Assembly: GCA_018003015.1 (NCBI GenBank)
Contig: JAGNEZ010000056.1
Coordinates: 1 to 41,462 of the forward strand
Direction: 5' to 3'
From: Phycisphaerae bacterium
GTDB lineage: Bacteria; Planctomycetota; Phycisphaerae; UBA1845; PWPN01
DNA: 41,462 nucleotides
Shown here: piece after piece, positions 19,121 through 35,168 of the stretch
Numbering within the stretch: position 1 is the stretch's first letter
How the letters are laid out: the number at the start of each line of letters is the position of its first letter
Notes under the pieces: model-generated
What the model saw: the letters and a program-made list of their open reading frames with translations, nothing else
What the model was told of the DNA's origin: nothing
Database searches by the model: none
Program-made: the position numbers and the translations under genes

Positions 19121-21221
<2,101 letters not shown>

Positions 21222-21268
21222 GCCCGCCCAGCTCTGTGAACGTGAATGAATGACCTGTTGACACACGA

Positions 21269-21286
21269 GGCCCGGTGCGACGGGCC
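21269..21286. repeat. GC hairpin in the groEL1-groES gap
   Basis: GGCCCG and CGGGCC make six perfect pairs around a six-base loop. It lies between groEL1 and groES, upstream of the AGGAGA ribosome site of groES. No T-run follows. It could be a processing or stability element that sets the ratio of the two proteins. Confidence 0.3.
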
Positions 21287-21309
21287 GTCTGACTCAGGAG
21301 AATGAGACG

Positions 21310-21609
21310 ATGGCAAAGGTGAATGTGAAACCTCTCGATGACCGTGTTCTGGTGTCCCAATGCGAGGCCGAAGAGAAAACCGCGGGCGGCATCGTTCTGC
21401 CCGATACCGCCAAAGAGAAGCCGCAGCGAGGGAAGATTGTGGCGACCGGGCCCGGTAAACTGCTCGACAGCGGCGAGCGCGGCAAGATGAGCGTGAGCAC
21501 CGGCGATGAGGTCTTCTACGGCAAGTACGCCGGCTCCGACGTCGAGATCGACGGCACGAAATACGTTATTCTTAAGGAAACCGATATCCTGGCGATCATC
21601 GATCGCTGA
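21310..21609 (+). CDS. groES: Co-chaperonin GroES
   Basis: The 99-residue lid protein caps GroEL rings. The whole length matches the family: N-terminal [10 protein letters not shown], mobile loop [20 protein letters not shown] (about 21-40) with the hydrophobic IVL contact for Gro[13 protein letters not shown] and the C-terminal [17 protein letters not shown] lies about eight bases before the ATG. It is the only groES in the window and is flanked by two groELs in the same direction, so it probably serves both. Confidence 0.96.
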
Positions 21610-21630
21610 CCGGCTCGTGGCAGACGCTGA

Positions 21631-23277
<1,647 letters not shown>

Positions 23278-23299
23278 GTCCGCGAGTTCAGGCCCTGCC

Positions 23300-23322
23300 C
23301 CAGTCGGCTCGCCGCCGACTGG
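23300..23322. terminator. Strong hairpin after groEL2
   Basis: CCAGTCGGC (23300-23308) and GCCGACTGG (23314-23322) form nine perfect pairs around a five-base loop, 22 nt after the groEL2 stop. There is no T-run, so it may be a 3' stabiliser or Rho-assisted end rather than a standard terminator. Two more hairpins follow: GGGCTC/GAGCCC at 23344-23360 and GCTCCGGG/CCCGGAGC at 23415-23445. Confidence 0.45.
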
Positions 23323-23467
23323 ATGCTCGGCATTGGTATGCTCGGGCTCCTGCAGAGCCCCGAACGCAGACGACGGACGGATCGAAAAGACCGAGACCAG
23401 CTGCCGTCCTTCGCGCTCCGGGCTCTGACTCCTGCGCCCCGGAGCAGGGGCCGTTCCAGATCAGGGC

Positions 23468-24634
23468 ATGGTTGTTGAGATGTCGTCGGTGGCCGAAAAA
23501 CGCGATTACTACGAGGTCCTCGGGGTGGCACGAGACGCCAGCCCCGACCAGGTCAAGAAGGCCTACCGACAGGCGGCACTCAAATACCACCCCGACCGCA
23601 ACCGCGAGGACCCCCAGGCCGAGTGCAAGTTCAAAGAGGCGGCCGAAGCCTACGAGGTCCTCTCCGATCCAGAGAAACGCCAACGCTATGACCGCTATGG
23701 CCACCAGGGGCTCGACCGCCAGGCCGTCCATGACTTCAGCGGAATGGGTGTCGATGACATCTTCTCCATGTTCAACGACATCTTCGGCGGCTCGATCTTC
23801 GGCGGCGGCTCCGAGCGAAGGGGCGGGGTCGACCTCGAACTCCAGGTCAGCTTGACGCTGGAGGAAATCGCCCAGGGGACGGAAAAAACCATCGAGTTCG
23901 AGCGGCACGACGTCTGCGAGCATTGCAGTGGCAGCGGCTCGGAGCCAGGCTCGCCGAAACGAAACTGCCCGACCTGCGGCGGATACGGGCAGGTGGAGCA
24001 GTCCACCGGTTTTGGGGCCTTGTTCGGGCGGGTCGTGACCGCATGTCCGGCCTGCCGCGGGCGGGGGATGGTCATCGCGACCCCGTGTCGCCGCTGCCGT
24101 GGGAGCGGCCGGGAGCGGAAACACCGGGTGCTCGCGGTTCAGATCCCGGCCGGAATCCAGGATGGCCAGGGTGTCCGCGTGGCCGGCGAAGGCGAACCAG
24201 GGGAGTCGGGCGGCCGGGGCAACCTGCACGTGTACGTCCGCCAGGAGCAGCACCCGTTCTTCGAGCGACGAGGCGACGACTTGGTCTGCCGCGTGCCAAT
24301 CAGCTTCCCACAGGCCGCCCTGGGAGCCAAGGTCGAGGTCCCTTCGCTCGACGGGCGGATCGAGCTGCGAATCCCGCCGGGGACACAGCACGGCCAGCTG
24401 TTCCGGCTGGCGGGCAAGGGCTTGCCCAGCCTGCGCGGACGGCGACCCGGCGACGAGATCGTTCAGGTCTGGATCGAGGTGCCCAAGACACTCAACAAAC
24501 GCCAGGAAGAGCTGCTCCGCCAATACGCCGCCAGCGAAGACCAGTCGGTGCTCCCGGAGTCAAAGGGCTTCTTCGACAAGCTGGCCGACTTCTTCTCAAG
24601 TGGTAAGGAGAATCGTGAACAGAAGGGTGACTGA
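23468..24634 (+). CDS. dnaJ: Hsp40 co-chaperone DnaJ
   Basis: The 388-residue J-protein stimulates DnaK ATPase and delivers substrates. J domain (about 10-75) with the catalytic HPD in KYHPDRN; Gly/Phe region (about 80-118: [19 protein letters not shown]); zinc-finger region with four CxxCxGxG units ([32 protein letters not shown]; about 153-218); C-terminal substrate/dimer domains. All type I features are present. The start is unclear: ATG at 23468, ATG at 23480 and GTG at 23489 are in frame, and the last gives the family-typical [12 protein letters not shown]. grpE follows after six bases. No dnaK is seen in the window. Confidence 0.94.
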
Positions 24635-24640
24635 TCGGCC

Positions 24641-25273
24641 ATGGGTAAGAAGGACAGCAAGATCGTGATTCCCAGCGAGGACGAGCTGAAGGCCTATGCG
24701 GGCAAGCTCGACGCCGGACCGCAGACTGCCCCCGCGCACACCACTCCCGAGCCGGCCGCCGCCGCGACGGGGGCGGTGGACGCCGCGACACCGCCGCCTG
24801 CGGGTGAGGAAGAACTCGCCCAGGCGGGCCCTCAATCCGAAGTCGAGCAGTGGAAGGACAAGTACCTGCGGTCCAAGGCCGAACTGGCCAACTACCAGCG
24901 CCGCTCGGAGAAGGACCGGGCGGAGGCCCTCCGCTACGCCAACGCCAGCTTCGCCAAGTCACTGCTGCCCACCATCGACAACCTCGAGCGAGTCCTGGAG
25001 GCGGGGCAAACCCACAAGGACAATACCGACGCCATTCTGGACGGCGTCAGGATGACACTTCAAGACCTGCTCAAGGTACTGGCCGAACATCAGGTCGAAC
25101 GCATCGAGGCGGAAGGGCTGCCGTTCGATCCCATGGTACACCAGGCCATGGTGCAACAACCCTCCGCGGATTGTCCCGACAAGACGGTACTGAAGGAGCT
25201 TGCGAAAGGCTATCGCCTTCTCGAGCGGGTGCTGCGGCCCGCCAAGGTGATCGTCTCCAAGGCCCCGGAATAG
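24641..25273 (+). CDS. grpE: Nucleotide exchange factor GrpE
   Basis: A 210-residue protein that releases ADP from DnaK. An acidic, Ala/Pro-rich disordered N-terminus (about 1-65) leads into the long coiled coil (about 70-130: EQWKDKYLRSKAELANYQRR) and the beta domain with the family signature (LPFDPMVHQAM, GYRLLERVLRPAKVIVSK). Its start lies six bases after the dnaJ stop, with GAGAA and GGTGA near the dnaJ end as ribosome site. Part of dnaJ-grpE-fmdB-yacG. Confidence 0.94.
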   Translation: MGKKDSKIVIPSEDELKAYAGKLDAGPQTAPAHTTPEPAAAATGAVDAATPPPAGEEELAQAGPQSEVEQWKDKYLRSKAELANYQRRSEKDRAEALRYANASFAKSLLPTIDNLERVLEAGQTHKDNTDAILDGVRMTLQDLLKVLAEHQVERIEAEGLPFDPMVHQAMVQQPSADCPDKTVLKELAKGYRLLERVLRPAKVIVSKAPE

Positions 25274-25283
25274 GGGAGAATAC

Positions 25284-25619
25284 ATGCCGACCTATGATTA
25301 CACCTGTTCGTCCTGCGAGCATGCCTGGGAACTGTTCCAGTCAATCACCGCTAAACCGATCCGCAAATGCCCTCAGTGCGGCCGCCAAACAGCCCGGCGA
25401 ATGATCGGCACAGGAGCGGGCATCCTCTTCAAGGGCTCCGGCTTTTACTGCACCGATTACCGCAGCGAGGGGTACGAAAAGGCGGCGAAATCGGAGTCGG
25501 ATTCCTCGGCCGGCAAAAGCAAGGGCGAGTCCGGTGGTTCCGGGGCAAAGGCGACTACCGAGTCAAAGTCCACGCCGACGCCTGAATCCAAGCCATCGAA
25601 GAAACCGGATGACAAGTAG
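25284..25619 (+). CDS. FmdB-family zinc ribbon protein
   Basis: A 111-residue protein. The N-terminal 45 residues are the FmdB/putative regulatory zinc ribbon: MPTYDYTCSSC and CPQCG supply the two Cys pairs that bind Zn. The segment LFKGSGFYCTDYRS (about 52-65) is also family-typical. The tail (about 68-111) is Ser/Lys/Pro-rich and disordered. Starts ten bases after grpE with GGGGAGAA before the ATG. The family is linked to regulation in Methylophilus but its true role in most bacteria is not known. Confidence 0.85.
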   Translation: MPTYDYTCSSCEHAWELFQSITAKPIRKCPQCGRQTARRMIGTGAGILFKGSGFYCTDYRSEGYEKAAKSESDSSAGKSKGESGGSGAKATTESKSTPTPESKPSKKPDDK

Positions 25620-25652
25620 CCGGCCGGAGATCGACCGGGAGGGTGGCTGGTT

Positions 25653-25856
25653 ATGCCTACGCTGCAATGTCCCATCTGTCAGCGACAGATTCGCTACTCC
25701 TCGCTCGAGGAAGTACCCTATCGTCCGTTCTGCGGCCAGCGCTGCAAGCTGATCGACCTCGGCAAGTGGCTGAACGAGGAATACCGCATCAGCGAGGAAG
25801 TGCCCGACGGGCATCGCCATCCACCGCAGGACAGAGCCCAGGCCCAGAAGGAGTAA
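25653..25856 (+). CDS. yacG: DNA gyrase inhibitor YacG-like zinc protein
   Basis: A 67-residue protein with the YacG zinc site: CPICQRQIRY and FCGQRCKLIDLGKWL carry the four Cys, followed by EEYRI. In E. coli YacG binds GyrB and blocks DNA binding. The start has GGGAGGG about nine bases upstream and lies 33 nt after the fmdB-like gene, the last gene of the chaperone block. The C-terminal 20 residues are charged and disordered. Confidence 0.88.
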   Translation: MPTLQCPICQRQIRYSSLEEVPYRPFCGQRCKLIDLGKWLNEEYRISEEVPDGHRHPPQDRAQAQKE

Positions 25857-25982
25857 TACCCGACGATCAGCCATCGGCCGGCGGCAACCCGCCGGGACTG
25901 GTCCCGTTGGCGTTTCTCCGTCTGGTCGACGTCCCTTCCAGGCCTCTCCGCCGCCGCCCCCTTTGTGCCTGCCCCCTACGTA

Positions 25983-26011
25983 TTGGCCTCGCCATGGCCG
26001 CGGCTTATAAT
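25983..26011 (+). promoter_or_regulatory. Sigma-70-like promoter of the envelope-protein operon
   Basis: TTGGCC (25983-25988) and a perfect TATAAT (26006-26011) are 17 nt apart. Start would be near 26018, leaving a leader of about 49 nt to the ATG at 26067. It gives the 26067-31641 genes their own promoter, separate from the chaperone block. Confidence 0.6.
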
Positions 26012-26066
26012 GCGGCCGGTCAATGACGGGCGATTTCTTTGGCGGCATGCATGGGAGGATGCTTTC

Positions 26067-27995
26067 ATGTCTGAACAAGTCAACGAGCTTCGCCGAATCA
26101 ACTGGTCGGAGTGTTTCCCGTTCACCCGGATCTTCCGCACCTTCGGGATGGCCAAGTCTCCCGGCAAGCTGGCGATGGCCCTGGCCGCGGTCCTGCTCAC
26201 CTGCCTGTGGGGCGGGATCCTGGACGGCCTGTGGTCATCCAAGCATCAGCCGTTGAGAAACGAAGTCGGGGCATTCAGTCAGGTCGCATCGCTTGATCAG
26301 TGGCGAGAAGGGAACCGCAAGGCGACCGTCCAGGCCCTTCGCCGCGTCTGCAACGAGGTTGGCGCAACCCTGCCGGTCAAGCTCGAAGAGGAATTCGCCC
26401 GGCAGCCGTCCAAAGTGATCAGCGATGTCCTCAAGGACATCAAGGCCAGGCACAAGAAGACGGTCGACGACTTGGCCGATCAGCTGGGCAAGGAGAAGAA
26501 CCTGACCCAACAGCAGAAGCGGGAACGAACCGCCGAGAAGACCAAACCCTTGGTGACTGCCTATGCTCAAGTGAGAAACCTGCGGCCTCGCGGCGTGTTC
26601 TGCGGTTTCGCAAGCTACGAGTGCCAGGTCGGGCGGCAGTTGATGTACGCCGCTCGGACGCTCAACTTCACCGGCGGTCTGCAAGCAGCCTTGTCGCCAC
26701 GCGGGTCCGGATCGAGTGGTCCGGCGTACCGGGACGTGGTGCCAGGAATGGCCAACGCCGCATTCGACCTCGCCCTGAACGCCGCCGACCGACCTCGAGA
26801 GCCGACCGCTGGCGGCTTCTTCACAGGGGTCCTCGATGACCAGGTGTTGGCCCGTGGCGAGGTCGGTGCCGTTCCGGCGGGCTATGGCGTCCTCCCGTGT
26901 GTGATTCTCGCCTTGCGCGGCGTTCAGTGGATGTGGTTGGAGCACACCCTGTACTTCTTCCTGTTCTGGATTCCTGCCCTGGTGATCTGGTCGCTGTTCG
27001 GCGGCGCCTTGAGTCGGATGGCGGCCCTGGATCTCGCTCGCGATGAGCAGATCTCGCCCAAGGCAGCCTTGTGCTTTGCCTGGCGAAAGCTGCTCGGATT
27101 CGTGTCCGCTCCGCTGGTCCCGATTGTCTTCATCGTCGCGATCGGCTTGGTCCACTTGCTGGGCGGCGCGTTCGGCTTCATTCCTTGGATCGGCGAGTTC
27201 ATCGGCGGCATCATCGCTGGCTTGGCCCTGGTGGGCGGCGGCCTCATGGCCCTTCTGGCGATCGGAGCGGTGGCCGGCGGCGGGCTGATGTGGCCAACGA
27301 TCGCGGCCGAGGGCTCGGATGGCTTCGATGCCATGAGCCGCAGCTACAGTTACATCTTCACTCGGCCTTGGCACGCGGCCTTCTACGCCGTGATCGCGGC
27401 TGTTTACGGGGCGATCTGCTATCTGTTTGTCAGGTTCTTCCTCTTCCTGGCCCTTCGGCTGGCCAGGGCATTTGTCGGGATGGGTATGGGCGTGTTCGCG
27501 GGCCTCCTGCAGTTCTGCGGTGCCGACGGAGCTGGCGATCGCTCAGCGGCCGGCGCGGCCTGGGCCCAGAAAGTGGATGTGATCTGGCCTGCGCCAACCT
27601 TCGCCAATCTGGCACCGGCCCGGATGCCATTAGGCGCCGATGGTTTGATGGAATCGGGCATGGCCTGGATGTTCCACATGTGGATGCTCCTGGTCGTGGC
27701 CTTGCTGTTCGCTTTCATGGTCTCGTTCTTCATGTCCGGCTCGACGGTGATCTACTTCCTGTTACGCCGGCACGTGGATGCCACGGATATCGACGACGTG
27801 TTTGTGGAGGAGGGCGAAGAGGGTGGCCAGCCATCGGCGAGCGGGTGCGCGAGCACCGCAACCGGGGGATCCGTCGCGGAACCGTCAAGCGGACCGGTCC
27901 CGAGCTCGGTGGAGTCGACCGGAACGCCAGGTCCGTCGACATCGACGGAACCGAAGCCGCCTGCCTCGGAACCGCCCGCCTCACCGCTGCCTTAG
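26067..27995 (+). CDS. Polytopic membrane protein of unknown function
   Basis: A 642-residue membrane protein; the ATG has GGGAGG eight bases upstream, and an open extension to 25965 runs across the promoter and is rejected. One helix lies near residues 36-56. A soluble region follows (about 60-300), with a Lys/Glu/Gln-rich coiled-coil-like stretch (about 130-170). About six helices fill 310-590, including Gly-rich ones. A conserved-looking motif SRSYSYIFTRPWHAAFY sits near 430. The tail (about 590-642) is acidic, then Pro/Ser-rich. It resembles planctomycete-only hypotheticals with the S-Y-Y-TRP motif; no function is known to me. First gene of a four-gene set. Confidence 0.75.
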   Translation: MSEQVNELRRINWSECFPFTRIFRTFGMAKSPGKLAMALAAVLLTCLWGGILDGLWSSKHQPLRNEVGAFSQVASLDQWREGNRKATVQALRRVCNEVGATLPVKLEEEFARQPSKVISDVLKDIKARHKKTVDDLADQLGKEKNLTQQQKRERTAEKTKPLVTAYAQVRNLRPRGVFCGFASYECQVGRQLMYAARTLNFTGGLQAALSPRGSGSSGPAYRDVVPGMANAAFDLALNAADRPREPTAGGFFTGVLDDQVLARGEVGAVPAGYGVLPCVILALRGVQWMWLEHTLYFFLFWIPALVIWSLFGGALSRMAALDLARDEQISPKAALCFAWRKLLGFVSAPLVPIVFIVAIGLVHLLGGAFGFIPWIGEFIGGIIAGLALVGGGLMALLAIGAVAGGGLMWPTIAAEGSDGFDAMSRSYSYIFTRPWHAAFYAVIAAVYGAICYLFVRFFLFLALRLARAFVGMGMGVFAGLLQFCGADGAGDRSAAGAAWAQKVDVIWPAPTFANLAPARMPLGADGLMESGMAWMFHMWMLLVVALLFAFMVSFFMSGSTVIYFLLRRHVDATDIDDVFVEEGEEGGQPSASGCASTATGGSVAEPSSGPVPSSVESTGTPGPSTSTEPKPPASEPPASPLP

Positions 27996-27999
27996 CTGG

Positions 28000-28012
28000 G
28001 CCGGTGACCGGC
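28000..28012. repeat. Short perfect palindrome after the membrane-protein gene
   Basis: GCCGGT and ACCGGC flank a single G, five bases after the stop codon. As RNA it could form a five-pair stem with a three-base loop. No T-run follows, and the rest of the 139-base gap to the next gene shows nothing clear. Confidence 0.25.
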
Positions 28013-28134
28013 GGGTGCGGAGTCGGGCTTCAGGACGCGAGACCGGCAACTGGGGGAAACTCGATTGGGTTTGACCAGGTTCGATCCCGCCGCCGGGGGG
28101 ACCGGCTGTGGATTTGATGGGGTGACGATTGGCA

Positions 28135-28824
28135 ATGGATTATGAAATCGCCAGGGGGAGCGGCAGGTGCACGGCAACGGCACGTGAATTGGCCGAAGGC
28201 GAGGTGTACTACGCGGTGCTGTTCGAGACGAATGAGGGATTCGAGCGGCGGGATTTCGCCTCCGATGCCTGGACTGGCCCGCCGGAAGGGCATTTCTGCT
28301 ACTGGCGGGCCAAGGTGCCGCCTCGGCATCGAAAGCCCAGCACGGTGGTTGTCGATCATGCCCTCCTGACCAGCTTCTTCTGTCGGCTCGAGGACCACAA
28401 GTCGGAGCTGCGTCAGCAGTTCCGCTTCGTGCTCGCGCTGCTCCTGATGCGCAAGCGGATTCTCAAGCTCGACGGCACGGTGCGAGAAGGCGACCGGGAG
28501 TCCTGGCGTCTCCGCCTGGTGGCCGATCAGAGTGAGCATCTGGTGCTCAATCCGCGGCTCAGCGACGAGCAGATCGAGCGGCTCAGCGCCCAGTTGACCG
28601 CGATTCTGAGCGGCGATGCCATGATGATTGAATCGTTGGTCAACGAGGAGGAACTTGGGCCGGCGGACTCGAACGGCGCGCTGCCGGTTGTCGCCGGTGA
28701 GGGCTCGGTCCCCGGTCCGAAAGCGGCTGCCGGTGGTGCAGATCGCCCGGATGAACCGGCCACGTCGCTCGATGCCGAGACCGACGTCGCTCCTGAAAGC
28801 GAGGACCCCGTTGCGCGCACATAG
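28135..28824 (+). CDS. Conserved planctomycete-type hypothetical protein
   Basis: A 229-residue soluble protein. The ATG at 28135 follows GGGGTGA; a TTG two codons earlier is in frame. The first 90 residues (DYEIARGSGRC, ELAEGEVYYAVL, WTGPPEGHFCYWRAKVP) resemble a planctomycete hypothetical family in which Cys pairs often form a zinc-finger-like head; here only a single Cys remains at each place, so zinc binding is doubtful. A helical middle (about 75-165) precedes a disordered acidic tail. The end overlaps the next gene by 14 bases. Function unknown. Confidence 0.7.
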   Translation: MDYEIARGSGRCTATARELAEGEVYYAVLFETNEGFERRDFASDAWTGPPEGHFCYWRAKVPPRHRKPSTVVVDHALLTSFFCRLEDHKSELRQQFRFVLALLLMRKRILKLDGTVREGDRESWRLRLVADQSEHLVLNPRLSDEQIERLSAQLTAILSGDAMMIESLVNEEELGPADSNGALPVVAGEGSVPGPKAAAGGADRPDEPATSLDAETDVAPESEDPVART

Positions 28825-29734
28825 GCTGGTCGGCGGAATCCTGCTCCTGGCCGGAGGCATCGCTGGGTGCCCCCCACGCGAGGTCATGCGCCCCACCCTG
28901 GCCCCGGATGCTCCCAAGGCCACGGTCATCGCTCGGGTCAATGAGAATGCCGACGCGATGGACTTCCTGCTGCGGGCCGGCGGCGTCTCCGCCACGGGCG
29001 AGTTCCTGCGCGAGGGTCATCGCGAGAGCTTCCACCTCACCGGTACGCTGCTCTATCGCAAGCCCATGAGTCTGTACCTCAAGCTGGAGCACATCGGCGG
29101 CAGTATCGAGGCCGGCTCTAACGAACAGGAGTTCTGGTTTTGGGAGAAGGTGGATTCTCCACGATACTCGTGGGGCATGCATGAGTATATGCCTGACGAC
29201 GCGGACACCGATATCCCCCTCCGCCCCGATCTGCTCGTCGAGGTGCTCGGTTTCGGCGGCTTGCCCGAGGATACCACCGGCCCCCAGGGCCCGCTTTTCT
29301 GGGTCGGCCCGCAGCATTGCGAGCTGATCTTCATGGATCGCGGCGAGGACGATCAGCTCTACATCACCAAGACGATCGACCTGGACCGCAACGAGCCTTT
29401 CTTGGTACGCTCCGTGGTGTTCTTCCGCTCAAATGGACGGCCGTGGATGCAGGCCAAACTGTCGGACTACCGCAAGGTCGAGGGTGGTGGCATCGTGATG
29501 GCCCCGCACAAGATCCGGATGGACTGGCTGCCCGATCGTGGCTGGCTTGAGCTCAAGTTCGACAACACCAAGCGGTTCGATAACGCCGCCGCCGAGAAGC
29601 GGTTCCGTTCGCCGCGCCAGCTCGGCTACGATTTGGGGCGGGAAGTCAGGGTGGATGGTCCTCGCGTGCTGCCCCGTCGGCCCGCGCCGGCGCCGGCCGC
29701 TACCCCTGCTCCTGAAGAGGCTGAGTCGTCCTGA
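28811..29734 (+). CDS. Lipoprotein with LolA-like features
   Basis: A 307-residue lipoprotein. The likely start is the TTG at 28811, six bases after GAGG, since residues 1-20 then form a signal peptide with the lipobox GIAG-Cys20. The frame extends to 28628 but that part is in the previous gene. The body (about 35-280: SATGEFLREGHRESFHLTGTLLY, SLYLKLEHIGG, FWFWEK, and later YRKVEGGGIVMAPHKIRMDW) suggests an open beta-barrel of the LolA/LppX or DUF4292 type that binds lipids; this is fold inference from pattern only. The tail is Pro/Ala-rich. It is coupled on both sides (14-base overlap upstream, TGATG downstream). Confidence 0.68.
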   Translation: MRAHRLVGGILLLAGGIAGCPPREVMRPTLAPDAPKATVIARVNENADAMDFLLRAGGVSATGEFLREGHRESFHLTGTLLYRKPMSLYLKLEHIGGSIEAGSNEQEFWFWEKVDSPRYSWGMHEYMPDDADTDIPLRPDLLVEVLGFGGLPEDTTGPQGPLFWVGPQHCELIFMDRGEDDQLYITKTIDLDRNEPFLVRSVVFFRSNGRPWMQAKLSDYRKVEGGGIVMAPHKIRMDWLPDRGWLELKFDNTKRFDNAAAEKRFRSPRQLGYDLGREVRVDGPRVLPRRPAPAPAATPAPEEAESS

Positions 29735-31641
29735 TGCCTTTGCCTGTGCTGCCATCGGTTCCTTCACGCATGGATCGGCTTGCTGCCGCATGCGCCCTTT
29801 CGGCACTTCTGGGCATGGCCGTCGGAGCCTCCGGCGCGGAGAAGACTCCCGCAACGAAGCTTATCGCGGCGGGCAATGACCGTGTCCTCTGGCTGGCCGT
29901 CGGTCAGTGGGACTCACAGGACAGAACCTACGTCTATCGCTTCGCCTTGCTGGATGAACTCGTGACCCCCATCCGCTCGGTGAGCAATCTAGCGCCGCAG
30001 CGAGGTCGCATCGATCGGTGGGCGGTGGCGGGCAAACGCCTTCACGTGTTCTACGGCAGAGATGCGGTGTTCAGGGCCGACGGCGCTCACTACAGCATCG
30101 AGTGGAGCGGCACTTCAGGACGATCGCAACAGTTCTCCGAGGCTGACCGGGAGCGTCCGTTGCCGGGTCCGGTGATGCCGGCCGCGGTGGCGGGTGAGTC
30201 CGCGGCCCGAGCCCCGCGCCTCTGGGCCCTGGTGACCGCCGAAACCGCCGCCGCGGTGGAAACCGGATGGATGCGGGATCAAGGTGGGGCGACTTCCCGG
30301 GCGGCGGAACAACCGGATCACGAGTCGCTTTCTCCGCCGCTGGCGGATTCCGCACCGACTCGAGAGAAGAGCAGTGAGGCCTTCTACCACCTGGTCCAGT
30401 ATGACGGCACTGAGTGGCGGCCCGGCTTCGCGGCGACGCCGCAGTGTCCCACCAGCGAGCGGGTGTGGCTGACACTGGTCGAGGATCGGTTCTACCTCCT
30501 GTGGCAGCGGCGGACCAGCGACCGCGTGATTCACTCCGCCTACTGTGAGCAGGATCGCTCGCGGTCGGGTGTGCCGCGATGGATTCAGGGACCCACCCTC
30601 TCGCTCGGACAGACGATCGTGAACGGCACGGCCCTGGTGATCAACCGCCGGCTGGTCTTTGAAGCGATGGTCGCTGCGGGCGAGGGAACCGACCGCCTGG
30701 TGTGCCGGGGTTGGTTGTGGCAGCCGTCCGCTGACGGCACGGGTGGTTGGACTCCGTTGCCCGCGCTGTCAGAACCTGCCGAGGTGAAATCCGAAGGTGG
30801 TGAAAGGAGTTCTAAGGTTCCTGAAAGCAAGCCCGGCGAGCTGCGGTTGCCACCCGGCTCGACGGTGAGCGGCAGCCGGGATCAGCTGGCCGTCGTTCGC
30901 CCGGTTGAGCAGGAAGCCGAGGTGGCTTTCTTCTCGCCTACTGCAGGCGGGCCGCCGAGTTCGGCCTTCAGGAGAGTACCCTTGGCCGCGGCGAATCCGG
31001 CCACTGCTGCCCGCCGCGGCCTGTATGACCTCATGGCCACCATGGTCGTTGTGGCCCTGCTCGCCCTGGTTTTCTGGCGGAGGCAGGAAAGCCTGGCCGT
31101 GCCGGTGCCCTTGCCGGTGGGCACCCTGGTGGCCGGACCCGGGAAGCGGGCCCTGGCCGCGGCCATCGACATGATCCCTGCGGCGGTCGTCGTGGCCGTG
31201 TTCTGGCGAGAGGACCTTTTCCCGCACCTGAGGCAATTGTGGGCCGCCTCGGCGGCCTACGTCGCGGGCCAGCACGATACCCTCGAAGCCCTGGTCACTC
31301 CGGACTCCCTGGTATGGGCCTGGGTGTGGTTCCGCCTCCTCTACGTGGGCTACTGCATCGCCTGCGAGATCATCATGCAGGGTACGCCGGGCAAGAAACT
31401 GCTCAGCTGCCGCCTGCTGACTGAAGACCTCGGAAGCCCGAACGGCGTCCAGGTGGTGATCCGCAATATCACCAAGCTGATCGAGCTGGAGCCGACTCTC
31501 CAGATCTGGCCTTTCATGCTGGTCATCTTCTTCACCCGCAACCGCCAGCGGTTGGGCGATCTGCTCGCTCGCACCATCGTCGTCGATCAGCAGTACGAGA
31601 GCCTCGAACCTCCCGAACAGGATCGCGAGGACGAGGGATGA
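29734..31641 (+). CDS. Exported sensor-like domain fused to an RDD membrane domain
   Basis: A 635-residue protein whose ATG overlaps the previous stop (TGATG); an in-frame ATG at 29770 would give a cleaner signal peptide (MDRLAAACALSALLGMAVGASG). Residues 40-420 form an extracytoplasmic region of repeated Trp-rich strands (VLWLAVGQWD, RLHVFYGRDAV, WRPGFAATP, RFYLLWQRR), propeller-like. A helix at about 430-450 precedes an RDD domain (about 465-625) with GKRALAAAIDMIPA (the R..A..D motif), GTPGKKLLSCRLL and RQRLGDLLARTIVVDQ. RDD proteins are thought to move small molecules or ions or to anchor complexes. Last gene of the operon. Confidence 0.75.
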   Translation: MPLPVLPSVPSRMDRLAAACALSALLGMAVGASGAEKTPATKLIAAGNDRVLWLAVGQWDSQDRTYVYRFALLDELVTPIRSVSNLAPQRGRIDRWAVAGKRLHVFYGRDAVFRADGAHYSIEWSGTSGRSQQFSEADRERPLPGPVMPAAVAGESAARAPRLWALVTAETAAAVETGWMRDQGGATSRAAEQPDHESLSPPLADSAPTREKSSEAFYHLVQYDGTEWRPGFAATPQCPTSERVWLTLVEDRFYLLWQRRTSDRVIHSAYCEQDRSRSGVPRWIQGPTLSLGQTIVNGTALVINRRLVFEAMVAAGEGTDRLVCRGWLWQPSADGTGGWTPLPALSEPAEVKSEGGERSSKVPESKPGELRLPPGSTVSGSRDQLAVVRPVEQEAEVAFFSPTAGGPPSSAFRRVPLAAANPATAARRGLYDLMATMVVVALLALVFWRRQESLAVPVPLPVGTLVAGPGKRALAAAIDMIPAAVVVAVFWREDLFPHLRQLWAASAAYVAGQHDTLEALVTPDSLVWAWVWFRLLYVGYCIACEIIMQGTPGKKLLSCRLLTEDLGSPNGVQVVIRNITKLIELEPTLQIWPFMLVIFFTRNRQRLGDLLARTIVVDQQYESLEPPEQDREDEG

Positions 31642-31826
31642 CGATCGCGGGGCCGAGCCCGTCGGCCGGAGAGCAGAATCCTCCCCCCTGGCGATCGCCC
31701 GGCCGATCGACGTCGCTGCCGGGGCGGAGAGCGCCACCTGGCGGACGACGTCGGGCCAGGATCACCGGTGCCGGCTGATCGGTTTGACCGGCCTGCTCGC
31801 CTGGTCGACGGTCACCTGCCCGCCAG

Positions 31827-32822
31827 TCAGCCTGGCCAGAGCAGTTCCCGACGGGCCCCGCGAAACACTCCCTCCCAGTCGAAGGCCGGGCCGGGATCGA
31901 CCTTGCCCTTGGATTCATGCCAGTGACCCATGAATCCGGAAAACGCGGCCTGCTCCTCGTTGGTGAACACGTCCATCCGAATGCTGCCGTCCGGATTCCG
32001 CGGCGCGTCGAGGGTCATCTTGGGAAAGATGCGGCGCATGGTCGCGACCAGCTTGATGAGGGCCGCGTACTGCTCGGGTGTATAGTCGTATTGCCAGACC
32101 TCGCGGCCGTTGATCGTGCCCTTGAGCAGTTCCTTGCGAGCGGGCCTGCCGACGAAGCTTGGCGTGCGAATGCCGGTCTCCTTGACCTCGGGCGGGAAGG
32201 TTGCCACCGGCCAGCCGTCGGCGCCGAGGCTGTACCATTTGTCGAGCGTGGTCTTGGACTTCTCCCCGTAGGCCCCGATGTTGGCGATCTCGACGCCGAC
32301 GCTCCGGTCATTGGCCGTGCCGGCATGCCATGCCCGCTCCTTCAGGTCGAGCGTCTGGTAGAGCGTTCCGTCCAGGTCGAGCAGGAAGTGCACGGAGAGC
32401 CCGCGCATGTCCTGTAGAACCTGAAAACACCTTCGAGAGGTTCCACAGACGTCGTAATGGAACACGAACTGGTCGACCTGCTCCTGGAGATTGGCCAGCG
32501 TCCAGCCCTCCCTGGCGACCTTGGCCTGGAGTTCGGCGGGCAGGTTTCGCCGGTCGCCGAAGCGGCTGGGGCTGTCCTTGTCGACCGGGTTGGTGGGCAT
32601 GATCTTGTCCGGCTCGAAATGGCGATGGGCTTCGTAGGCATCATAGCCGCCGGGATCCAGCCACAGCACCACCGGGGTACCGGCGTGGAAGAGCTGGCCG
32701 CAGACCACGATCTCGTCGCCGTGACGGTTGAGGTGGTCGCCGGGACGGATGCAGCCGGTGGCCGCGGTGAGCAGAAGCGTCATCCCTGCGATACCGACAC
32801 CGTGACTCAGTCCTAGACGCAT
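31827..32822 (-). CDS. N-acetylmuramoyl-L-alanine amidase (amidase_2) lipoprotein
   Basis: A 331-residue peptidoglycan amidase that cuts between MurNAc and L-Ala. The start is MRLGLSHGVG with GAGGAGG six bases upstream; the open frame above it is antisense to the next gene. The signal ends in the lipobox TAATG-Cys (about 24). Amidase_2/AmpD-like domain (about 115-330): zinc ligands in FVFHYDVC, RAWHAG and the KVDPGPAFDW motif (Asp), with the catalytic Lys before it; VGVEIANIG is also conserved. The insertion of about 60 residues between core strands is typical of bigger bacterial members. It is convergent with the RDD gene and divergent from the phosphoesterase gene. Confidence 0.87.
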   Translation of the reverse strand: MRLGLSHGVGIAGMTLLLTAATGCIRPGDHLNRHGDEIVVCGQLFHAGTPVVLWLDPGGYDAYEAHRHFEPDKIMPTNPVDKDSPSRFGDRRNLPAELQAKVAREGWTLANLQEQVDQFVFHYDVCGTSRRCFQVLQDMRGLSVHFLLDLDGTLYQTLDLKERAWHAGTANDRSVGVEIANIGAYGEKSKTTLDKWYSLGADGWPVATFPPEVKETGIRTPSFVGRPARKELLKGTINGREVWQYDYTPEQYAALIKLVATMRRIFPKMTLDAPRNPDGSIRMDVFTNEEQAAFSGFMGHWHESKGKVDPGPAFDWEGVFRGARRELLWPG

Positions 32823-32913
32823 GGTCAGCCTCCTCGGCGCCAAACCCACGGTCTCTTTCGGGCGCGCCGGTTGTATTTCAACCGCTCGGGGCCGTGATCG
32901 CAAGTCGGGCGAC

Positions 32914-32942
32914 TTGTGATTGGGGAGGCCGCCGCCTATGAT
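32914..32942 (+). promoter_or_regulatory. Sigma-70-like promoter of the phosphoesterase gene
   Basis: TTGTGA (32914-32919) and TATGAT (32937-32942) with a 17-nt spacer. Start near 32949 leaves about 33 nt to the ATG at 32982, which has GGGGAGG nine bases before it. Likely drives the phosphoesterase and epimerase-like genes. Confidence 0.55.
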
Positions 32943-32981
32943 GGGCCCGAAGTCGTCGTTCATTCGGGGAGGATCTCGGTC

Positions 32982-35168
32982 ATGACCAGTCTGCTCAAGT
33001 GGGGCCGACAGGGGTTCGTCCTGGCGGTCATGGTGTCCATGGGGTGGGCTTGGACGCCGACGGCCACGGTCGGCGCGGCGGTTGCGGATTTCGCTTTTCT
33101 GCAGATCAGCGATATCCACGTTTCGCCTCGGCCGGCAGGGGCTCGCAACGTGGCGGAGCCGGATCTCAGCGCGGAAGGATTGGCCTGGTTCGCCGAGCAG
33201 GCCGTCAGACCGCAGGTGCTCACCGCTCAGGGAATCACCACCCCGCCGCCCGCTTTTGTGCTGGCCACCGGTGACATCTGCGAGTACGGGGCCATCGCGG
33301 GGACTTGGGACGTCGTCGAGCGGTACTTCGCCGCGGTGAAGCTGCCCATCTACCTCACCGCCGGCAACCATGACTACACCTGGGCGGGCATCATGCCGAT
33401 CATCGCCAAGGCCTATGGCTACGATCATTACTCCTTCGACGAGTTCGGATGCCATTTCGTGTGCATCGAGACAGCCACGCCCCAGGAGCCGCTGCCGTGC
33501 ATCGATCAGCGAACGGTTGCCTGGTTGGCCAAGGACCTCAAGCCGGTGTCTGCCCATATGCCGGTGATCGTGTTCTGCCATCATCCGCCCTCCACGACGG
33601 AGTTTCCCCAGCCGCAGGATCCCGTGCGGCTGCAGGAAGCGCTGAGCGGGCACAACGTCGTTTTGCTGCTCATGGGCCACGGGCACGGCGTCCGTCACGA
33701 GAAGCTCGGTCCGATCGACTGCGTGATGGGCGGATCGACCTACGGCCCCAACACCGGCTATGGGATCGTGGCGGTGACCGACGGCGTGCTCCGCGTGGCA
33801 TACAGGTTCAAGGATGCGGCCAAACCGATGCAGACGCTGGTGGAGAAATCCCTTGCGGCTCCGAGACTCCCATCGGTTGAGATCGTGGATCCCGGACCGC
33901 AGACTCTCATCACCGGCCCGGCAATCGATATCTGCGCGCGTGCGCCGGTGGGCGGAGAACTCCGACTGACTGCCGCTCTCAATAATAACCACACGCAAGC
34001 CGTTCCGCTGGTACCGGCGGAATCCGTTTTCCGGGCCAGGTTGGCGGTGGGTGACCTGCTGCCCGGGGCCCACGTCGTACACCTCCAGGTCACGGCCGGT
34101 GCTCTCAAGCTGGATCGCCTGGCGTCGTTTGTCTATGCGCCGTCCGATTCGCCTGTGGGTGAGTGCCGAATCCAGCTTGACTCCGGCAGCAAGGCCCGGC
34201 CGCTTGCCGTCGGCGACGAGGTCATTGTCGCGGGCACCGATGGACGAATCGTGGCCGTCCGCGCGGGGGATCCGGCAGGTGGTCCGCGGATCGTCTTTGA
34301 CGGCAAATCGTCGATCTTGCACGAGCCGGCTCTGGCGGATGGCGTGCTGTACTTCGGCGCATCCGACCGGATGGTCCATGCCGTGAGTCTGGCCGGCAAG
34401 CACCTGTGGAAGACACCGGTCAAGGGCTGCGCCCTTGGGACGCCGGTCGTTGAGGGCGGCGTGGTGTACGTCGGAGATCTGGAAGGTGGTGTGACCGCGA
34501 TCGATCGCCAAGGCGGGGAGGTGAGATGGTCTAAGCCGCTGGCGGTGTTCAGTATTGAGATGCCGCTGAGGCTCCATGGCGGCGTGCTCTACTTTGGTGC
34601 CTGGGATGGTCATGTTTACGCGGTCGACGCCGCCACCGGCGTGCTCAAGTGGAAGGCGATTGGCCCGGCGGGCCAGAACCATCCCAAGCAGAAGAATCGA
34701 TACTACAGCCCGGCCGATTGCCCCGGCATTGTTGTCGGCGACCGGGTGTTCTTCACCGACCGGGCTTACCAGCTCGGCAGCTACTTGCTGGACGGCAAGT
34801 ACTTGGGAGACATCGCCGAGGATGTGGCCGCCATCGGACCCACCGAGGACGGCAAGGGTTTCTACGCTCGCGGGCTGGCCAAGGGATTGACCCGATACGA
34901 CGGGGCGGGTAAGCAAGTGTGGACTGAATCGGTGCCGATGGGCCGTTTTCCCTGCCCGCCGACGGAGGTGGGCGGCGTGGTCTACGCATGCTCCAATGTT
35001 GGCGTGCTCCGGGCTCATGATGGCGCGACCGGCCGGCTGCTCTGGGAGTATCAGGCCACGCCCGGCACTTACGTGATGGCCCCGGTGGCGGTCGATGACC
35101 AGGGACGAGCGATCGTGATCGGCATGGACGGTACACTGGTCCGTGTTGCGCCGGTCAAGCCACGATAG
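32982..35168 (+). CDS. Secreted metallophosphoesterase fused to a PQQ-type propeller
   Basis: A 728-residue exported enzyme. Signal peptide about 1-30. Calcineurin-type metallophosphoesterase (about 33-260) with every metal motif: ISDIHV (Asp, His), TGDICEYG (Asp), AGNHDY (Asn, His), CHHPP (His) and MGHGHG (His). A linker beta domain (about 300-395) leads to a beta-propeller of PQQ/WD40-like repeats (about 400-725): VIVAGTDGRIVAVRAG, VLYFGASDRMVHAV, VVYVGDLEGGVTAID, VLYFGAWDGHVYAVDA. The repeated W-x-G blade marks are seen, but the residues for PQQ binding were not tested. It probably hydrolyses phosphate esters or nucleotides outside the cell. The 47-nt gap to the next gene suggests one transcript. 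Confidence 0.85.
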   Translation: MTSLLKWGRQGFVLAVMVSMGWAWTPTATVGAAVADFAFLQISDIHVSPRPAGARNVAEPDLSAEGLAWFAEQAVRPQVLTAQGITTPPPAFVLATGDICEYGAIAGTWDVVERYFAAVKLPIYLTAGNHDYTWAGIMPIIAKAYGYDHYSFDEFGCHFVCIETATPQEPLPCIDQRTVAWLAKDLKPVSAHMPVIVFCHHPPSTTEFPQPQDPVRLQEALSGHNVVLLLMGHGHGVRHEKLGPIDCVMGGSTYGPNTGYGIVAVTDGVLRVAYRFKDAAKPMQTLVEKSLAAPRLPSVEIVDPGPQTLITGPAIDICARAPVGGELRLTAALNNNHTQAVPLVPAESVFRARLAVGDLLPGAHVVHLQVTAGALKLDRLASFVYAPSDSPVGECRIQLDSGSKARPLAVGDEVIVAGTDGRIVAVRAGDPAGGPRIVFDGKSSILHEPALADGVLYFGASDRMVHAVSLAGKHLWKTPVKGCALGTPVVEGGVVYVGDLEGGVTAIDRQGGEVRWSKPLAVFSIEMPLRLHGGVLYFGAWDGHVYAVDAATGVLKWKAIGPAGQNHPKQKNRYYSPADCPGIVVGDRVFFTDRAYQLGSYLLDGKYLGDIAEDVAAIGPTEDGKGFYARGLAKGLTRYDGAGKQVWTESVPMGRFPCPPTEVGGVVYACSNVGVLRAHDGATGRLLWEYQATPGTYVMAPVAVDDQGRAIVIGMDGTLVRVAPVKPR

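Follow-up and report, generated by a model that had tools for sequence, protein, structure and literature searches.

A conserved gene pair of Planctomycetota encodes a soluble protein and a predicted lipoprotein of the LolA/LolB fold

Do four consecutive genes in the genome of a Phycisphaerae bacterium form a single envelope system, and what is the role of the predicted lipoprotein among them? The genes, here called A to D, lie on contig JAGNEZ010000056.1 (assembly GCA_018003015.1), of which a stretch of 41,462 nucleotides (nt) is referred to as the window (Table 1). An earlier note, made from the sequence of the window, had described them as a four-gene envelope operon and as a candidate for an undescribed system that handles lipids or lipoproteins or responds to envelope stress. 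The four open reading frames and their coordinates proved to be correct. Judged from gene order among relatives, however, the conserved and probably functional core is the gene pair B-C and not all four genes. We propose that C accepts lipoproteins at the outer membrane in the manner of LolB, a reading to which we give an even chance.

B was found in 234 of 294 Planctomycetota genomes (134 of the 155 of good quality), as a rule in one copy each. Scanning named genomes with a B profile yielded 80 genome loci, nearly all labelled as Planctomycetota or one of its classes, with one labelled as uncultured bacterium and one as Alphaproteobacteria. C directly follows B in 77 of these 80 loci, two of the three exceptions being contig ends, and D comes after B-C in 37 of the 77. 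C was found in 12 of the 13 genomes of the organism's own family, and it adjoins B in 18 of 40 loci drawn across the phylum, namely in the class Phycisphaerae and in the families numbered f31, f72 and f81 in our survey. The gap between B and C has a median of 8 base pairs (bp), and the two genes overlap or directly adjoin in 41 of 105 loci, a set in which 11 loci appear twice. While the B-C adjacency persists in these groups, the other neighbours all change. These adjacency counts therefore identify B-C as the evolutionary core, D as a common addition and A as a local one. Gene order across Planctomycetota, which had been proposed as a check, thus upheld the B-C pair in Phycisphaerae and several other families but not A-B-C-D as a unit, and the presumed four-gene system is reduced to B-C with an optional D. 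Restriction of the cluster to planctomycetes fits all that was found, in a comparison that lacks a controlled outgroup.

Two of the loci deserve separate mention. The one labelled Alphaproteobacteria (L155) holds a typical planctomycete B-C-D cluster, which is about 81% identical over 1.7 kilobases (kb) to that of a Phycisphaerae genome (L154), and the L155 genome is probably mislabelled or misbinned. In a distant planctomycete (L196:671-6842), a cyclodeaminase gene is followed by a zinc-ribbon-type B, a TIM-barrel protein, C, an opposite-strand gene and D, an arrangement that suggests a long-standing neighbourhood of B, C and D.

The N-terminus of C consists of a 19-residue signal peptide ending in IAG-C (signal peptide and lipobox, MRAHRLVGGILLLAGGIAGC), and the predicted acylation cysteine is invariant in an alignment of 75 homologues. 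Asp occupies position +2 in only 2 of 93 homologues; the C of the window has Pro. The AlphaFold2 model (pLDDT 90.5, pTM 0.84) comprises a single LolA-like domain, residues 15-264. Its best structural match (VIA-align) was LolB of Porphyromonas gingivalis (LolB-PG, 9tpm; Z 18.8, root-mean-square deviation 2.9 Å, 220/236 aligned), followed by the LolA_like protein 3bk5 (Z 17.4), the DUF1329 protein 4z48 (16.2) and LolA3 (15.8). E. coli LolB (1iwm) and LolA proteins reached Z 13.9 and up to 13.9, respectively, and RseB/MucB 6.6-7.7. Foldseek returned LolA-superfamily chains at E 5e-9 to 1e-7, and the sequence profile of C found 3bk5 (E 8e-6) and P. gingivalis LolA3 (9tp6, E 4e-5) in the PDB. Among the 75 homologues, 9 weakly match LolA_like (PF17131, best 6.5e-7) and 7 DUF4292 (PF14125, best 6.1e-6), families of the same superfamily, whereas the window C itself matches no Pfam family, including PF17131. 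At an E-value of 0.01, neither C nor any of the 75 homologues matched the LolB family PF03550. C therefore belongs in the LolA/LolB superfamily but outside PF03550, whose sequence test it fails. A plasmid search with C gave no match.

Because the second to fourth matches of the fold search score close to LolB-PG, we applied the two features that separate LolB from LolA, namely an acylated N-terminal cysteine and a hydrophobic tip of the β3-β4 loop (PMC13103446, PMC11885536). This tip is Leu68 in E. coli LolB, Leu77 in LolB-PG, Leu in LolB1 and Phe in LolB2 of Flavobacterium johnsoniae (PMC13103446, PMC11885536). In C, the corresponding position is Ile76, between the strands 68-75 and 78-84, with its exposure deduced from the hairpin of the model (DSSP), and 69 of 73 homologues are hydrophobic there (41 Leu, 21 Phe, 5 Ile and 2 Met). 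Three marks of LolB membership, i.e. the predicted fold, a lipobox cysteine without Asp at +2 and a hydrophobic hairpin tip, are thus present in C. That C is a lipid-anchored LolA-like protein, as the earlier note had stated, is borne out by sequence profile, model and lipobox, and can be refined to LolB-like; lipid or lipoprotein handling is accordingly the best reading for C, albeit not for a conserved system of four genes.

C shares with LolB-PG and with LolB1 and LolB2 the LolA/LolB half-barrel with an enlarged sheet, the N-terminal acylated cysteine (predicted in C) and the hydrophobic Leu/Phe on the β3-β4 loop, and like them it is not recognisable by sequence as a proteobacterial LolB. 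It differs from them by an identity of only about 12%, by its phylum and in being known here from sequence and model. Moreover, its gene adjoins B (and D) and not a LolA gene, and a cognate LolA is not recognisable in its own genome. With proteobacterial LolB, C has the fold, the (predicted) lipid anchor and the hydrophobic hairpin tip in common; in contrast to the E. coli protein it lacks a match to the sequence family and has 288 instead of about 186 mature residues, and E. coli lolB is encoded with ispE. From LolA_like, DUF4292 and 3bk5, the window C is set apart by its predicted lipid anchor and the LolB-type hairpin tip.

Taking together the gene order and lipobox that we observed, the fold of the model and the conserved hydrophobic tip, we infer the outer-membrane location of C, its cargo and the direction of transfer. 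The half-barrel cleft of C would receive lipoproteins, or another acylated lipid, from a putative periplasmic carrier, and C would then release the cargo into the membrane. The hydrophobic residue at the β3-β4 tip would enter the bilayer or the cleft of the carrier, as in the LolB proteins of E. coli and Bacteroidota. B, which many genomes probably translate together with C, would be active in the cytosol and perhaps help to make or regulate C or the cargo of C. D would have joined the pair later in some lineages of the class, placing an RDD domain in the inner membrane and a propeller-like domain in the periplasm. A wider and more doubtful proposal is that planctomycetes possess a LolB-type module of their own for insertion into the outer membrane, made from C and the dedicated soluble partner B, in which C would complete delivery without a canonical carrier in lineages devoid of a recognisable LolA, and D would add an inner-membrane and periplasmic component in part of the class.

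Several observations weigh against C as a LolB-like acceptor. The second to fourth matches of the fold search lie within 1.4-3.0 Z of LolB-PG, and fold alone does not separate a LolB-like C from other lipid carriers of the LolA superfamily. Alignment of the C profile with the single E. coli LolB sequence by hhalign was not significant, and the residues at lipobox positions -3/-2 are non-canonical in 27 of 93 homologues according to a simple rule, which partly picks the wrong cysteine. The organism's own genome contains no LolA recognisable by PF03548 and none by PF17131, a diverged LolA being possible, and a partner carrier for C is thereby missing from its recognisable proteins. Strict replacement of LolA by C was dropped as an idea, since LolA turned up in 25 of 101 genomes when the whole class was searched. 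Deletion of LolB-PG caused no growth phenotype (PMC13103446), and the LolB-like reading leaves the roles of B and D unexplained. As to the carrier, it may either be too diverged for recognition, or C may fill both roles, as has been suggested for Caulobacter, whose LolA would be bifunctional (PMC11784454).

Canonical LolB (PF03550) is represented by weak matches in 2 of 199 planctomycete genomes and has no match in the organism's own genome. No LolA is listed for its order. In the phylum sample, LolA occurs in none of the 24 genomes with adjacent B-C, compared with 54 of 199 overall (hypergeometric 3e-4, ancestry ignored). LolC/E (TIGR02212) was discarded as a marker of the Lol transporter, as it matched 13 of 14 control genomes, mostly below the cut-off. 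Weaker relatives of C are found next to LolA in some distant planctomycetes: one locus (L190:2421-6607) encodes three consecutive C-like lipoproteins and then a LolA-like protein (PF03548, 23.4 bits at a cut-off of 23.6), and two others (L192:169-5428 and L191:1657-7006) a C-like lipoprotein, a MacB/FtsX permease, an ABC ATPase and a 564-residue protein with a C-terminal LolA domain, the Pfam check having been made on L192 and L190. The set in L191 and L192 is a possible candidate for a planctomycete Lol-type operon. Such LolA-adjacent relatives provide an independent context for lipoprotein trafficking, with the reservation that permease/ATPase sets of this kind serve other exports too.

The closeness of the fold matches also fits a different function, in which C is a LolA-superfamily carrier of a non-lipoprotein lipid such as a phospholipid, a hopanoid or a different amphiphile, in line with what has been suggested for exporter-adjacent LolA_like/DUF1329 proteins, while the RDD domain of D exports or flips that lipid. 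Both 3bk5 and 4z48 match the C model almost as closely as LolB-PG does, D accompanies C in almost half of the B-C loci, and the genome lacks a recognisable LolA. However, carriers of the LolA_like and DUF1329 families are usually soluble or not lipid-anchored, unlike C, RDD domains have no demonstrated lipid-flipping role, and D is absent from half of the B-C loci. Furthermore, the hydrophobic hairpin tip of C has no counterpart in LolA3 (PMC13103446). Taken together, we consider a non-lipoprotein lipid carrier rather unlikely. It would be more improbable still that B and C are functionally unrelated proteins of a loose housekeeping neighbourhood, adjacent through shared expression only. B does occur without an adjacent C in 22 of the 40 distant loci, amid neighbours as varied as flagellar motor genes, dcw/mur, rnc and folD, but across Phycisphaerae, f31, f72 and f81 the two genes still overlap or stand about 8 bp apart while all other neighbours change.

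One lineage encodes a sigma-70-type factor and an anti-sigma-like protein beside a B gene that has no C with it (L102, L105), and a further locus (L096) shows an anti-sigma-like gene. This pair upstream of B, partly present in L096, together with the fold shared by the N-terminal domains of RseB and MucB, would suit a sensor of mislocalised lipoproteins within an envelope-stress system. The fold match is, however, far weaker than that to LolB (Z 7-8 versus 18.8), C consists of a single domain and lacks the C-terminal domain of the two-domain RseB, the sigma-linked loci are devoid of C, and no sigma or anti-sigma gene accompanies B-C in the organism's own family. The envelope-stress role considered in the earlier note is weakened by these results, and we regard it as very improbable.

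B had no significant match in Pfam or NCBIfam and none in a sequence search of the PDB, and hydropathy revealed no hydrophobic segment. Its model is two-part (pLDDT 78.6) and found no Foldseek match at E ≤ 0.001. Residues 4-74 align weakly with LIM domains, i.e. LIM-type or treble-clef zinc ribbons (Z 5.0, 56 residues). Distant homologues keep a CxxC...CxxC pattern (e.g. L074-L076 and L109), which fits this weak likeness, whereas the window B retains only one of the four zinc-ligating cysteines of such a ribbon. The C-terminal domain carries the conserved motif FRFVLALLLMRKR and has no clear match among solved structures. By its sequence, B represents a new, near-phylum-wide family without a name in Pfam or NCBIfam.

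D has a signal-like segment (16-34), a transmembrane segment (429-447) and a clear C-terminal RDD domain (PF06271, E 7e-12, 46.3 bits at a cut-off of 24.1), which is present in 33 of 33 D homologues, in line with the exported/RDD membrane fusion described in the earlier note. To the RDD family, D adds an exported propeller-like domain of about 400 residues, with profile matches to the propeller lectin CV39L (E 1.7e-6) and a Kelch protein (E 0.004). Downstream of the cluster, at 32916-35168, the window encodes a secreted metallophosphoesterase fused to a PQQ/BamB-like propeller.

The start of B is ATG 28135, with TTG at 28129 also possible, and that of C is TTG 28811, with GAGG 8-9 nt upstream and an alternative ATG at 28772. 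B and C overlap by 14 nt with the TTG start (53 nt with ATG 28772), and C and D by 1 nt (TGATG), the start of D sitting on the stop codon of C. These overlaps suggest translational coupling, but the fixed ratios that had been derived from them are not shown by overlap.

A and B do not overlap and are separated by about 139 nt between the end of A and the ATG of B (40-283 bp across relatives). Hydropathy shows about nine hydrophobic segments in A, of which one precedes a hydrophilic stretch of about 210 residues and the others follow it. A has no significant Pfam or NCBIfam match, one A homologue giving a weak match to DUF7847. The gene is present in 10 of the 13 genomes of the family and was not detected outside this family in the loci examined. 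The order A-B-C-D is kept in six other family genomes besides a close sister genome, whereas one genome (G001, L035) has B-C-D without A, and in another (G011) A adjoins groEL-groEL-dnaJ-grpE-fmdB (L030) and B-C-D lies on a different contig (L029). In L031 and L033, the gap between A and B contains clear intrinsic terminators that are oriented with A. In the window, the block groEL-groEL-dnaJ-grpE-fmdB-yacG (19536-25855) lies directly upstream of A, and the chaperone block stays with A in several relatives (L028, L030, L033, L034, L038, L039). Considering the gap, the terminators and the linkage pattern, A is therefore probably a separate transcription unit, a family-specific gene beside the chaperone block that is driven by its own promoter, and its function may belong with this protein-quality-control block rather than with B, C and D. 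Accordingly, A to D do not make up a single conserved transcription unit, and of the presumed operon the B-C pair is what is conserved.

The near-consensus promoter reported in front of A was recovered by our scan, which found 2 promoter-type sites in an 8.4-kb stretch compared with 0.7 ± 0.8 in shuffles, a count that is weak support when taken alone. A TATAAT box with a -35-like hexamer at 16-bp spacing is, however, located 50-110 nt upstream of A in three relatives (L027, L031 and L034) with A proteins of no more than 44-48% identity, and the box is likewise found upstream of A in the sister genome (L039). Because the TATAAT box recurs in diverged relatives, the promoter is supported beyond chance. 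A ribosome-binding site (TGGAGGA) lies 8-12 nt upstream of A and is kept in relatives, with TGGAGG before the start of A in most members. An Rfam scan of 25000-33000 gave no match.

Table 1. Genes and sites of the A-D locus, in positions of the window
Feature	Position	Strand	Description or basis
Promoter before gene A, sigma-70-type, TTGGCC-17-TATAAT	25983..26011	+	Scan and recurrence of TATAAT in relatives
Gene A	26067..27995	+	Polytopic membrane protein, 642 residues; family-restricted, no Pfam/NCBIfam family
Gene B	28135..28824	+	Soluble protein; degenerate zinc-ribbon-like N-terminal domain, alpha/beta C-terminal domain, acidic tail; phylum-wide
Gene C	28811..29734	+	Lipoprotein with predicted LolA/LolB fold; closest solved structure P. 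gingivalis LolB
Codon of the C acylation-site cysteine (lipobox IAGC, +2 Pro)	28868..28870	+	Sequence, alignment and lipobox survey
Codon of C Ile76 (mature numbering), β3-β4 hairpin tip	29093..29095	+	DSSP of the model and column composition
Gene D	29734..31641	+	Exported propeller-like domain fused to C-terminal RDD membrane domain

To our knowledge, LolB, the receptor by which lipoproteins are placed in the outer membrane, was not previously known from planctomycetes. The LolB proteins of Bacteroidota were added in 2025-26 (PMC11885536, PMC13103446). If our reading of C is correct, LolB-like receptors would extend to a third group, in which they would have a fixed partner across much of Planctomycetota, and C would be a testable candidate for the placement of lipoproteins in the outer membrane of planctomycetes, whose envelope is unusual.

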